A DNA stretch of 64,000 bases from Rhodobacter aestuarii (GTDB lineage: Bacteria > Pseudomonadota > Alphaproteobacteria > Rhodobacterales > Rhodobacteraceae), in assembly GCF_900156655.1 (NCBI RefSeq), contig NZ_FTOG01000001.1:434001-498000 (forward strand), written 5' to 3'. Below the pieces are notes generated by a model. It made no database searches. It saw nothing but the letters and a program-made list of their open reading frames with translations, and was not told where the DNA came from. Made by a program: the position numbers and the translations under genes. Positions 1,481-41,634 of the stretch are shown here, one piece after another (positions within the stretch are counted from its first letter, which is position 1; each line of letters begins with the position of its first letter).

Positions 1481-1490
1481 CGGGCGCCGC

Positions 1491-2567
1491 TCACCCATTC
1501 CGAAAATGTTTGGCGAGTTTGAGCCCTTGGCCTTGGTAGTTCGAGGCAATGCCTGCACCGTAAAGGCGTTCGGGGCGGTCGGCCATGCGCTCATAGACCA
1601 GTCGCCCGACGACTTGGCCGTGTTCCAGCACAAAAGGCGCCTCGTGGCAGCGCACTTCCAGCACGCCGCGCGCGCCTTCGCCGCCTGCTGCGCCGTGGCC
1701 AAAGCCGGGGTCAAAGAAGCCGGCGTAATGGACGCGGAACTCGCCGACCATTGCGAGGTAAGGCGCCATTTCCGCGGCGAAATCGGGCGGGATTACTACC
1801 GCCTCGCGGCTGACCAAAATGTAGAACGCGCCGGGGTCGAGGATGATCCGCCCATCGCGCGAGCGGATTTCTTCCCAAAAATCCGAGGCCGGGTAATGCG
1901 CGATCCGATCCAGATCAATCACCCCGGTGTGGGGCTTGGCGCGGTAGCCCACCAGATCGCCTGTCTCGGGCCGCAGATCGACCGAGAAGCCCAAGCCGTG
2001 GTCAATCACCGCTTCGCCACTCACCAATGGCTCGGCGCTATGGAGCGCCTTCAATTCGGCATCTGAAAGCGCGGCTTGGCCCGCGCGGAAGCGGATTTGG
2101 TTGAGCCGCATGCCGGGCCGCACCAGCACCGAAAACGATCGCGGACAAATCTCGGCATAAAGCGGGCCGCTATAGCCCTCGGGGATGCGGTCAAACTCGC
2201 TGCCGCCATCGGTGATAACGCGCGTGAGCAAATCCAGCCGCCCGGTCGAGCTTTTCGCGTTTGAGACCGCCGTAAGGCCCATCGGCAGGTTCAGACTTTC
2301 CATCAGGGGCACCAGATAGACGCAGCCCTTTTCGAGCACAGCGCCGTCTGAAAGCTCCATCCGGTGCATTTCAAAATCTGCCAGCTTTGTCTCGACCCGC
2401 TCGCCCTTGCCCGCAAGGAATGAGGCGCGGATGCGGTAAGCCACGCGGCCGAGCCGCAAATCAAGGCTGGCGGGTTGGATCTGTTCGGGGATCACGGGGG
2501 TATCGGCGGCAATTTCGCCGCGCTCAATCATCGCGCGCAATGCGCTATCGGGAAGAACACCCTGCAT
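1491..2567 (-). CDS. dcd: 2'-deoxycytidine 5'-triphosphate deaminase, long form
   Basis: A 358-residue protein of the Dcd/dUTPase superfamily, which makes dUTP from dCTP for dTMP synthesis. It is about twice as long as the E. coli enzyme and matches the alphaproteobacterial two-repeat form with a DCD_N domain: an N-terminal half (IPEQIQPASLDLRLG, VSNAKSSTGRLDLLTRV) and a C-terminal half (FYILVSREAVVIPPDFAAEM, HYAGFFDPGFGHG). The start at 2567 begins at MQGVLPDSALRAMIERGEI; upstream codons in the same frame overlap the tRNA gene and are not real. It stands alone between tRNA-Pro and an intergenic patch. Catalytic details for this long form are inferred from the family. Confidence 0.85.
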   Translation of the reverse strand: MQGVLPDSALRAMIERGEIAADTPVIPEQIQPASLDLRLGRVAYRIRASFLAGKGERVETKLADFEMHRMELSDGAVLEKGCVYLVPLMESLNLPMGLTAVSNAKSSTGRLDLLTRVITDGGSEFDRIPEGYSGPLYAEICPRSFSVLVRPGMRLNQIRFRAGQAALSDAELKALHSAEPLVSGEAVIDHGLGFSVDLRPETGDLVGYRAKPHTGVIDLDRIAHYPASDFWEEIRSRDGRIILDPGAFYILVSREAVVIPPDFAAEMAPYLAMVGEFRVHYAGFFDPGFGHGAAGGEGARGVLEVRCHEAPFVLEHGQVVGRLVYERMADRPERLYGAGIASNYQGQGLKLAKHFRNG

Positions 2568-2603
2568 CTCAATACCCCGTAAAATGGACACGGCGGATAT
2601 GCG

Positions 2604-2631
2604 AACGCCCACTCCCGAAGGAGTGGGCGTT
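2604..2631 (-). terminator. Hairpin 3' of tRNA-Pro
   Basis: A perfect 12-bp inverted repeat (AACGCCCACTCC / GGAGTGGGCGTT) with a CGAA loop lies 8 bases beyond the CCA end of the tRNA. There is no long T-run, but position and stability suit tRNA transcript termination or processing. Confidence 0.55.
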
Positions 2632-2638
2632 GTTCGGT

Positions 2639-2716
2639 TGGTCGGGCCGGAGAGATTCGAACTCTCGACCTTCCGCCCCCCAGACGGACGCGCTAACCAG
2701 GCTGCGCCACGGCCCG
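2639..2716 (-). tRNA. tRNA-Pro (anticodon GGG)
   Basis: On the minus strand a full cloverleaf can be folded. The acceptor is CGGGCCG / CGGCCCG with discriminator A and an encoded CCA. The D arm has GCGC / GCGC, the anticodon arm is TCCGT-CTGGGGG-GCGGA, and the T arm is GAGAG-TTCGAAT-CTCTC. The anticodon loop reads C-T-GGG-G-G, giving GGG, which reads CCC and CCU proline codons. The first pair C1-G72 is the unusual pair characteristic of bacterial tRNA-Pro. Confidence 0.95.
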
Positions 2717-38970: not shown

Positions 38971-39081
38971 GGGCTTAAGGGGTGTGACGCTGCGCTGCGC
39001 AGCGAGTGGGTTGCAAATCGGGTGCGAATGCTGTTGCGTGCGCTCACCCGTTCGTGAATGCGGCGCAGGAGGAGGGCACCC

Positions 39082-39576
39082 ATGCGCATCGGTCTATATC
39101 CCGGCACCTTTGACCCGGTGACGCTTGGCCATACCGACATTATTCAGCGCGCGCTGGCGCTGGTGGATCGTTTGGTGATCGGCGTGGCGATCAACCGTGA
39201 CAAAGGGCCTTTGTTCACGCTCGAAGAGCGTGTGGAAATGCTGCAAGCCGAATGCGCGGGCATCACCGCCAAATGCGGCGGCGAGATTGTGGTGCACCCG
39301 TTTGAGAATCTGTTGATTGATTGCGCCCATGATGTGGGGGCGAGTGTGATCATTCGCGGCCTGCGCGCTGTGGCGGATTTTGAATATGAATTCCAGATGG
39401 TTGGCATGAACCGCGCGCTGGATGACAGCGTTGAGACGGTGTTCATGATGGCCGATGCCCGGCGTCAGGCGATTGCCTCGAAGCTGGTGAAGGAAATCGC
39501 GCGCCTTGGCGGCGATGTGTCCAGATTCGTGCCGCCTGCGGTGGAAGAACGGCTCGTCGCGCGACTGCGGGGCTAA
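39082..39576 (+). CDS. coaD: Phosphopantetheine adenylyltransferase
   Basis: A 164-residue enzyme making dephospho-CoA from 4'-phosphopantetheine and ATP. The nucleotidyltransferase motif YPGTFDPVTLGH is at residues 6-17, and FENLLIDCAHDVGASVIIRGLRAVADFEYEFQM split by the conserved RGLR follows. The C-terminal SKLVKEIARLGGDVSRFVPP completes the family pattern. The start at 39082 has AGGAGGAGG; upstream arginine codons are not real. It lies 111 bases after the LysR gene and before copy D of the dispersed element. Confidence 0.96.
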   Translation: MRIGLYPGTFDPVTLGHTDIIQRALALVDRLVIGVAINRDKGPLFTLEERVEMLQAECAGITAKCGGEIVVHPFENLLIDCAHDVGASVIIRGLRAVADFEYEFQMVGMNRALDDSVETVFMMADARRQAIASKLVKEIARLGGDVSRFVPPAVEERLVARLRG

Positions 39577-40778: not shown

Positions 40779-41082
40779 GAATTTCTCCTGTCGATTTGCG
40801 GGCGACTGTGGCGCTTTTGCCGCGCTTCGCAAGGGGGCAGACCCCCTCCACGCAAGATTCGCCTCTTTTTTGAACTGTTCCAAAGCGAATTAACGCAGTT
40901 TTGGGGCGGAAACAGGTCAGAATCCGTTATGCATTTTTCGCAAGGCGGCGTTGCACCCGTCCGCCGTTGTGCAGATGCAGCATTTCCCCCATGTTAGCCC
41001 CAACAGCGACGGCGCACCGCAGAGACATCTCGGTCAAGCAGGCGCAGAACAACATACACAGCGATAGCGAAAGAGACGACGA
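40779..41082. other. Intergenic leader of the DUF1127/cuckoo RNA locus
   Basis: These 304 bases between divergent apbC and the DUF1127 gene hold no coding region I can support. They contain a GGGGGC...CCCCC fragment (around 40833-40850) like the GC end of the dispersed element, a short GGCGG/CCGCC inverted repeat (40945-40965), and a promoter candidate at 40967-40995. Confidence 0.5.
40967..40995 (+). promoter_or_regulatory. Candidate promoter of the DUF1127-cuckoo RNA transcript
   Basis: TTGTGC and CATGTT are separated by 17 bases, with the -10 preceded by CCCC. A C-rich CCCCAT-type -10 fits heat-shock sigma (RpoH) promoters, which drive the homologous locus in R. sphaeroides. Assignment by eye, about 88 bases upstream of the start codon. 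Confidence 0.35.
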
Positions 41083-41286: not shown

Positions 41287-41292
41287 GACTTC

Positions 41293-41321
41293 CTGAGGCC
41301 TCTCCTCCTCCCTGGCCTCGG
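41293..41321 (+). ncRNA. Cuckoo (CcsR-type) RNA hairpin 1
   Basis: Stem GAGGCC / GGCCTC (41295-41300 with 41314-41319, plus flanking pairs) displays the 13-base loop TCTCCTCCTCCCT. It is the first unit after the DUF1127 stop and has one of the shorter stems. Confidence 0.8.
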
Positions 41322-41326
41322 AGATC

Positions 41327-41363
41327 GGCGACACCCTCTCTCCTCCTCCCTGAGGGTGTCGCC
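41327..41363 (+). ncRNA. Cuckoo (CcsR-type) RNA hairpin 2
   Basis: A perfect 12-bp stem, GGCGACACCCTC / GAGGGTGTCGCC, displays the identical 13-base loop TCTCCTCCTCCCT. This is the most stable-looking unit after the last one. Confidence 0.88.
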
Positions 41364-41397
41364 AAACCCATACCGGCCCTATCTGCCGGAAACCTAT

Positions 41398-41425
41398 CAG
41401 GCCCCCTCCTCCTCCCTGGGGCTTG
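41398..41425 (+). ncRNA. Cuckoo (CcsR-type) RNA hairpin 3
   Basis: An 8-bp stem (CAGGCCCC / GGGGCTTG, one G-U pair) displays a 12-base loop, CTCCTCCTCCCT. It is preceded by a 34-base spacer with CCGGCCCTATCTGCCGG, itself a small hairpin without the CCTCC motif. Confidence 0.82.
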
Positions 41426-41432
41426 TAAAGAA

Positions 41433-41469
41433 GGCGGCGGCCTCTCTCCTCCTCCCTGAGGTCGCCGCT
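41433..41469 (+). ncRNA. Cuckoo (CcsR-type) RNA hairpin 4
   Basis: A 12-bp stem with G-U pairs (GGCGGCGGCCTC / GAGGTCGCCGCT) displays the 13-base loop TCTCCTCCTCCCT. Confidence 0.85.
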
Positions 41470-41483
41470 CCTTCAACCTGATA

Positions 41484-41512
41484 CCGCGTCCTCTCCTCCT
41501 CCCTGGGCGCGG
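41484..41512 (+). ncRNA. Cuckoo (CcsR-type) RNA hairpin 5
   Basis: An 8-bp stem (CCGCGTCC / GGGCGCGG, one G-U) displays the 13-base loop TCTCCTCCTCCCT. Confidence 0.83.
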
Positions 41513-41517
41513 GATAT

Positions 41518-41547
41518 GGTGCTGCTCACCTCCTCCCGAGCAGTACC
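41518..41547 (+). ncRNA. Cuckoo (CcsR-type) RNA hairpin 6, short loop
   Basis: A 10-bp stem (GGTGCTGCTC / GAGCAGTACC, one G-U) displays a shortened 10-base loop, ACCTCCTCCC. The core CCTCCTCCC is intact but the usual TCTC start is lost. Confidence 0.78.
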
Positions 41548-41554
41548 GGACATA

Positions 41555-41587
41555 CCAAGGCCTCTCTCCTCCTCCCTGAGGCCGCGG
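41555..41587 (+). ncRNA. Cuckoo (CcsR-type) RNA hairpin 7
   Basis: A 6-bp inner stem (GGCCTC / GAGGCC) and an outer CC/GG pair flank a 2x2 internal loop; the terminal loop is TCTCCTCCTCCCT. The inner stem matches that of hairpin 1 in inverted base order. Confidence 0.8.
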
Positions 41588-41592
41588 TTTTT

Positions 41593-41634
41593 AACGGCGG
41601 TGCCCCTCCTCCTCCCTGGGCGCCGCCGTTTTCC
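41593..41634 (+). ncRNA. Cuckoo (CcsR-type) RNA hairpin 8 and transcript terminator
   Basis: A 13-bp stem (41593-41605 with 41618-41630, one G-U) displays the 12-base loop CTCCTCCTCCCT and runs directly into TTTTCCATTTT. It is both the last CCTCCTCCC unit and the likely Rho-independent end of the DUF1127-sRNA transcript. Confidence 0.85.

Follow-up and report, generated by a model that had tools for sequence, protein, structure and literature searches.

The closest known system to the locus described here is ccaF1-CcsR1-4 of Rhodobacter (Cereibacter) sphaeroides (RF02791, the "CIN1" locus type). In the portions of the literature that we draw on, the ccaF1-CcsR operon of R. sphaeroides is reported to have an RpoHI/RpoHII promoter, and CcsR1-4 are described as processed by RNase E and as having a role in stress, with CcaF1 influencing their maturation. 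Two further groups of RNAs carry comparable loops. Cuckoo RNAs, as outlined by Reinkensmeier and Giegerich (2015), consist of 2 to 4 hairpins each, and NfeR1 of rhizobia (ar14, RF02344) is portrayed as an RNA of three hairpins that is transcribed from a promoter of its own and silences ntrB through the same loops. These accounts of ccaF1-CcsR1-4, cuckoo and NfeR1 come from excerpts of PMC10253847, PMC4504443, PMC3927594, PMC8307010, PMC8625941, PMC10746234, PMC12218461, PMC7866481, PMC11089165, PMC3320616, PMC10673084 and PMC5036791. The locus that we analyzed lies in a 64-kb stretch of DNA, referred to throughout as the window; it is of a kind already described, and is new only as this genome's copy.

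Eight conserved hairpins behind a DUF1127 gene

In the window, eight inverted repeats with CCUCCUCCC loops follow a 67-aa ORF, with stem-to-stem limits of 41295-41630 (Table 1) and the first loop 17 bases past the DUF1127 stop. The loops start at 41304, 41342, 41408, 41448, 41495, 41529, 41568 and 41608 on the plus strand, at start-to-start spacings of 38, 66, 40, 47, 34, 39 and 40, and they constitute all eight exact CCTCCTCCC matches of the window when both strands are searched, compared with a mean of 0.61 and a maximum of 3 in 100 shuffles. The original prediction had placed eight inverted repeats with nearly the same loop behind a DUF1127 gene and tallied their loops as five, two and one. 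Both statements hold, and the tally is exact: TCTCCTCCTCCCT is found in hairpins 1, 2, 4, 5 and 7, CTCCTCCTCCCT in hairpins 3 and 8, and ACCTCCTCCC in hairpin 6, and the ORF matches the Pfam DUF1127 family.

Table 1. Features of the DUF1127 locus and its hairpin array (positions in the window)
Feature	Positions	Strand	Observations
Promoter-like block, TTGTGCAG...CATGTT...AACAG	40967..41006	+	Upstream of DUF1127 gene
DUF1127 gene (ccaF1 ortholog), 67 aa	41083..41286	+	Pfam PF06568, E 5.2e-12
Hairpin 1 (unit 1)	41295..41319	+	Within CcsR1 match 41287-41367, 44.4 bits
Hairpin 2 (unit 1)	41327..41363	+	CcsR1 match; fold; three pairs with both partners altered in orthologs
Small motif-free hairpin, gap between units 1 and 2	41373..41389	+	CCGGC...GCCGG; five pairs invariant in six Rhodobacter
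Hairpin 3 (unit 2)	41398..41425	+	CcsR1 match 41389-41473, 62.7 bits, E 6e-15
Hairpin 4 (unit 2)	41433..41469	+	CcsR1 match; fold
Hairpin 5 (unit 3)	41484..41512	+	Fold; third hairpin in ar14 match 41388-41519
Hairpin 6 (unit 3)	41518..41547	+	Fold; loop ACCTCCTCCC, altered in TJ_12 and R. maris
Hairpin 7 (unit 4)	41559..41583	+	CcsR1 match 41550-41634, 30.9 bits
Hairpin 8 (unit 4)	41593..41630	+	Fold; then TTTT; possible terminator

Folding energy and comparison with orthologs show that the array of eight hairpins is genuine and conserved. Segment 41287-41640 has a minimum-energy fold of -167.1 kcal/mol, against -113.15 +/- 5.04 kcal/mol in 100 shuffles (z -10.70), and this fold includes all eight motif hairpins together with a ninth, small one that lacks the motif. 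When each hairpin is compared singly with 500 flank shuffles in which the loop is kept, the fraction of nulls that are equally stable is 0 to 0.004 for five of them, which stand out. It is marginal for hairpin 1 (0.05), and energy by itself does not set hairpins 3 (0.154) and 7 (0.118) apart, so that the case for hairpins 1, 3 and 7 rests on conservation. The small motif-free hairpin is perhaps a processing signal.

We evaluated conservation on aligned arrays from six Rhodobacter, using a structure drawn from the window sequence, a choice that biases the result in favor of that structure; 94.5% of stem cells are paired, against 36.5-48.7% with the structure slid, and five of the eight motif helices (hairpins 3, 4, 5, 7 and 8) contain some unpaired cells, being 81.8-97.2% paired. 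Both partners are altered in 6 pairs, where shuffles average 3.2 and 9 of 500 reach the observed number, and in 12 cells, where they average 4.6 and none of 500 does. The covariation score, 0.136, is likewise unmatched in 500 shuffles (0.102). By contrast, additional pair types are no more numerous among the six Rhodobacter than in shuffles (19 against 21.5, with 486 of 500 shuffles at or above the observed value). Compensated changes, which had been claimed from the eight unlike stems of this single genome, are unreadable from those stems but are present among the six orthologs. The accompanying claim that the CCUCC-bearing loops are constant and the stems variable agrees with the alignment, in which 67 of 72 columns are invariant in the 9-base loops, compared with 109 of 150 in stems and 81 of 145 elsewhere. 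In Rhodobacter sp. TJ_12 and R. maris the loop of hairpin 6 is changed, which leaves seven exact loops in each. Coding within the array was considered, since short open frames are present, and rejected, as ortholog indels in these frames and the stem covariation argue against it.

The closest named DUF1127 loci are those of Rhodobacter sp. TJ_12 (87%) and of R. maris, R. capsulatus and R. viridis (81-82%), which places the window within Rhodobacter sensu stricto. The neighboring genes encode an Mrp/NUBPL-type ATPase and RlmJ; among the best 80 of 171 relatives, mrp homologs are found in 74 loci, including all five Cereibacter-type ones, and rlmJ homologs in 30. Upstream of the DUF1127 gene, the elements TTGTGCAG, GCAGCA, CATnTT and AACAG are invariant in that order across 14 aligned loci, from Rhodobacter to Cereibacter, and by analogy we take the block to be the putative counterpart of the RpoHI/RpoHII promoter. 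Between 40700 and 41800, a sigma-70 promoter scan found nothing, and neither did a simple terminator scan, which did not list hairpin 8 with its TTTT. GGAGG is absent before the DUF1127 start in the window, and the gene may thus escape its own RNAs.

Genome-wide, the 9-mer occurs in 23 copies, as does its reversed control; 8 are within the array and 15 are scattered, so that a second array elsewhere was rejected at the level of exact motifs, a search that a diverged array would escape. Two 11-mers in the genome lie outside the array. The one at L002 is inside a 413-codon open frame and is not displayed as a loop. The other belongs to an isolated hairpin that resembles a terminator and carries CTCCTCCTCCC in the loop (L001, 1440-1560; G000:C11:122446, minus strand), near a frame whose translation looks by eye like pyruvate kinase; when 17 further genomes from the genus were compared, a hairpin with the identical loop was found in one, at 79% identity.

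Family assignment and array size

The Rfam model CcsR1 (RF02791) matches hairpin pairs 1+2, 3+4 and 7+8 with 44.4, 62.7 and 30.9 bits, respectively (the three E-values being 6e-15, 1.6e-9 and 1.5e-5, the lowest for 3+4), and hairpins 5+6 (unit 3) give no CcsR1 match at E up to 10. The best score is 2.6 bits below the Rfam gathering score of 65.3, which the TJ_12 ortholog exceeds at 66.4 bits. Placement in the cuckoo/CcsR family, as originally predicted, is supported. The prediction named rejection of most units by a covariance search as its refutation, and here the outcome is mixed, with matches to three of the four pairs and none at the curated cut-off. Because the scores are below the RF02791 cut-off, we file the array by locus-level homology and not as an RF02791 hit. 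The three-hairpin model ar14 scores 58.2 (E 6.8e-10) and 49.4 bits, and we do not file the array under it, its best score being 0.6 bits short of the gathering score of 58.8.

In organization the array resembles both CcsR and cuckoo RNAs: it consists of four two-hairpin units with CCUCCUCCC in both loops, giving eight exact loops, and its hairpins are adjacent, with a constant loop and variable stems. Relative to the 2 to 4 hairpins given per cuckoo RNA, the eight hairpins are read as four two-hairpin RNAs. The array shares with ar14/NfeR1 the same loops in successive hairpins; NfeR1 differs, in the accounts cited above, by its three hairpins and its own promoter. Like the ccaF1-CcsR locus, it has two-hairpin units with CCUCCUCCC loops behind a DUF1127 gene; it also shares the upstream mrp homolog with Cereibacter loci, and has four units, as does C. 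azotoformans. It differs from ccaF1-CcsR1-4 of R. sphaeroides in the length of the protein (67 aa here, 71 there) and in its best score, which stays under the 65.3-bit cut-off. We regard the array as almost certainly the Rhodobacter ortholog of the ccaF1-CcsR1-4 locus.

The original prediction gave R. sphaeroides four hairpins and concluded that the array had been doubled in this genome. This count has to be corrected: RF02791 is a two-hairpin model, RS0680a is described in the relevant part of PMC3927594 as two stem loops with an aSD motif in each, and, since each CcsR RNA has two hairpins, CcsR1-4 already amount to eight. The idea that a four-hairpin ancestor was recently doubled here, in favor of which nothing speaks except the prediction's own count, is also contradicted by relatives with eight loops (C. 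azotoformans, C. johrii, R. capsulatus and R. viridis) and by Tandem Repeats Finder, which found nothing in the window array, and we consider it extremely improbable. In C. azotoformans and C. johrii the eight loops form four pairs, with four CcsR1 matches across the eight loops of C. azotoformans, and in R. capsulatus and R. viridis they are spaced at 39, 67, 39, 48-49, 33-34, 38 and 39, nearly the same as in the window. Eight hairpins, forming four two-hairpin RNAs, are the usual CcsR size, or dose, and not an expansion.

We compared array sizes among the best 80 of 171 confirmed relatives, ranked by DUF1127 similarity, counting exact loops only, with C. johrii represented twice and L057, L068 and L108 ending shortly past the last loop. 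Each of these 80 loci has two or more exact loops behind its DUF1127 gene, and the locus is conserved across the named Rhodobacteraceae loci examined. Among the same best 80, loop number ranges from 2 to 16 and is most often 8 (19 loci), followed by 10 (13), 7 (12), 9 (9), 12 (6), 4 and 6 (5 each), 3 (4), 2 (3), 5 (2), and 13 and 16 (1 each). An uninterrupted stem of at least 5 pairs encloses 592 of 626 array loops, compared with 13.5% of 800 random places, and array stem lengths are bimodal, at about 5-7 and 10-13, in keeping with units that combine a short hairpin with a long one. Repeats with a period of at least 60 occur in 29 of 81 arrays (the 80 relatives and the window), mostly about one two-hairpin unit long. 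A close loop pair is present in 146 of 199 genomes drawn from the family, with a maximum of 25 pairs per genome.

Long homogeneous arrays elsewhere are the real outliers, and are more unusual than the window array; overall, exact loops per array number 2 to 26. The longest array encountered (L017 in G146, 1501-2671, minus strand) has 26 exact loops behind a DUF1127 gene; its repeat unit, present in 6.5 copies with 97% matches, is 140 bases long and holds three loops. Another (L037 in G046, 1490-2240, minus strand) has 14 exact loops and seven CcsR1 matches on a 114-base repeat (5.4 copies, 95% matches). The PufM protein (reaction centre M protein) of G046 is identical over 308 residues to PDB 4v9g chain AM, an R. 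sphaeroides protein. That G046 has seven matches, against the four CcsR RNAs of R. sphaeroides in the published accounts drawn on here, would be accounted for by strain variation or by a collapsed reference. Two-loop places away from the main array were observed at L012 (G103), L015 (G085) and L024 (G039); a DUF1127 frame adjoins the first, and none was found at the other two.

Candidate targets of the loops

Loop-complementary sites of the form GGAGGAG-N4-11-ATG were found in 50 rows, corresponding to 49 distinct genome sites, and the reversed pattern in 7. We took 40 of these sites; the other 9, of which three lie inside the window, were set aside by hand. Of the sites taken, 33 of the 40 have an ORF of at least 100 aa, and 30 were scanned (L142, L144, L145 and 7 short ones omitted). 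As a control, 40 of 91 rows for another 7-base site, AAAGGAG, were picked by hand, approximately every second row, with 31 ORFs of at least 100 aa, of which 30 were scanned (L197 and 9 short ones omitted). Pfam gave no match for 3 of the 30 target ORFs and 5 of the 30 control ORFs. Solute-binding proteins are encoded behind 8 of 30 GGAGGAG sites (L125, L130, L131, L135, L151, L154, L157 and L158) and behind 1 of 30 AAAGGAG sites (L187), with a two-sided Fisher value of 0.026 that is descriptive, as the class was picked after the target list was known. The GGAGGAG set also holds RuBisCO large chain, malic enzyme, transketolase, alanine dehydrogenase, two enzymes with an acetyl-CoA-synthetase N-terminal domain, 3-hydroxyacyl-CoA dehydrogenase and mannonate dehydratase; the AAAGGAG control includes metabolic genes too, such as GAPDH and two arginase-type enzymes.

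GGAGGAG precedes genes for the TRAP receptor DctP in 4 of 11 cases here, 2 of 3 in G200 (another Rhodobacter-group genome) and 2 of 9 in G046, and AAAGGAG in 0 of 23. DctP was chosen for its prominence in the same genome, so that the independent part is the 4 of 12 from G200 and G046, and the binomial value of 1e-5 uses an estimated gene number of 3700. GGAGGAG sites are commoner in G046 (159, reversed 29) than in G200 (57, reversed 12). The enrichment for solute-binding proteins is modest, and TRAP/ABC receptors and carbon-metabolism enzymes are probably enriched among the candidates. This lean agrees with NfeR1, whose candidate targets are mostly ABC transport systems in the excerpted accounts. 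Strong SDs may simply mark highly expressed genes, which is a simpler reason for such sites.

Proposed function and rival explanations

By analogy with R. sphaeroides, we infer the following sequence of events: (i) the DUF1127 gene and the four two-hairpin modules in its 3' UTR would form a single transcript driven by a stress sigma factor, (ii) RNase E, with the DUF1127 protein, would cut this transcript into small RNAs, and (iii) the stems would present the CCUCCUCCC loops for pairing with GGAGGAG-type ribosome-binding sites, which would lower translation or stability of a limited mRNA set. We consider this reading as a whole, a ccaF1-CcsR1-4 ortholog whose processed RNAs silence a limited set of GGAGGAG mRNAs, to be probable, and we lean, with somewhat less assurance, towards silencing of an mRNA subset as the main action. 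The titrator of GGAGG-containing mRNAs suggested in the original prediction is plausible.

The equal loops might instead serve mainly to bind and sequester a protein with affinity for RNA, be it Hfq, an RNase or the DUF1127 protein, with mRNA silencing secondary. Many equal loops, and arrays of 2 to 16 of them among the best 80 of 171 relatives, fit such a protein sponge, and the available passages describe CcaF1 as an RNA-binding protein on the same transcript that acts on CcsR maturation, and CcsR as binding Hfq. It is nevertheless the loop that is complementary to SD sequences, and mutating the three aSD seeds of NfeR1 is reported, in the portion cited, to abolish ntrB silencing; we therefore judge a sponge unlikely. 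Far less probable still is a device confined to the 3' end, in which the hairpins would shield the DUF1127 mRNA against 3' exonucleases and terminate transcription, without acting in trans: the 3' UTR location and the TTTT after hairpin 8 are what such a device would have, but it leaves the constant loop, and its conservation above that of the stems, unexplained, and CcsR and NfeR1 act in trans according to the cited excerpts.

Returning to silencing by the loops, we offer as a speculation, which we think doubtful, that CcsR arrays set an evolvable silencer dose, with module number shifting by unit duplication and loss and with GGAGGAG sites on TRAP/ABC receptors and carbon-metabolism genes as targets. 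If so, a single stress promoter would reduce uptake and assimilation to a degree proportional to the length of the array. The TRAP/ABC receptors with GGAGGAG provide a testable target list for RNAs with few direct targets named in the literature excerpts used here. A long loop-complementary site, GGAGGAGGGCACCCATG, is also present in the window itself at 39068-39084, before a gene that by eye is coaD-like and lies two genes upstream of the array.
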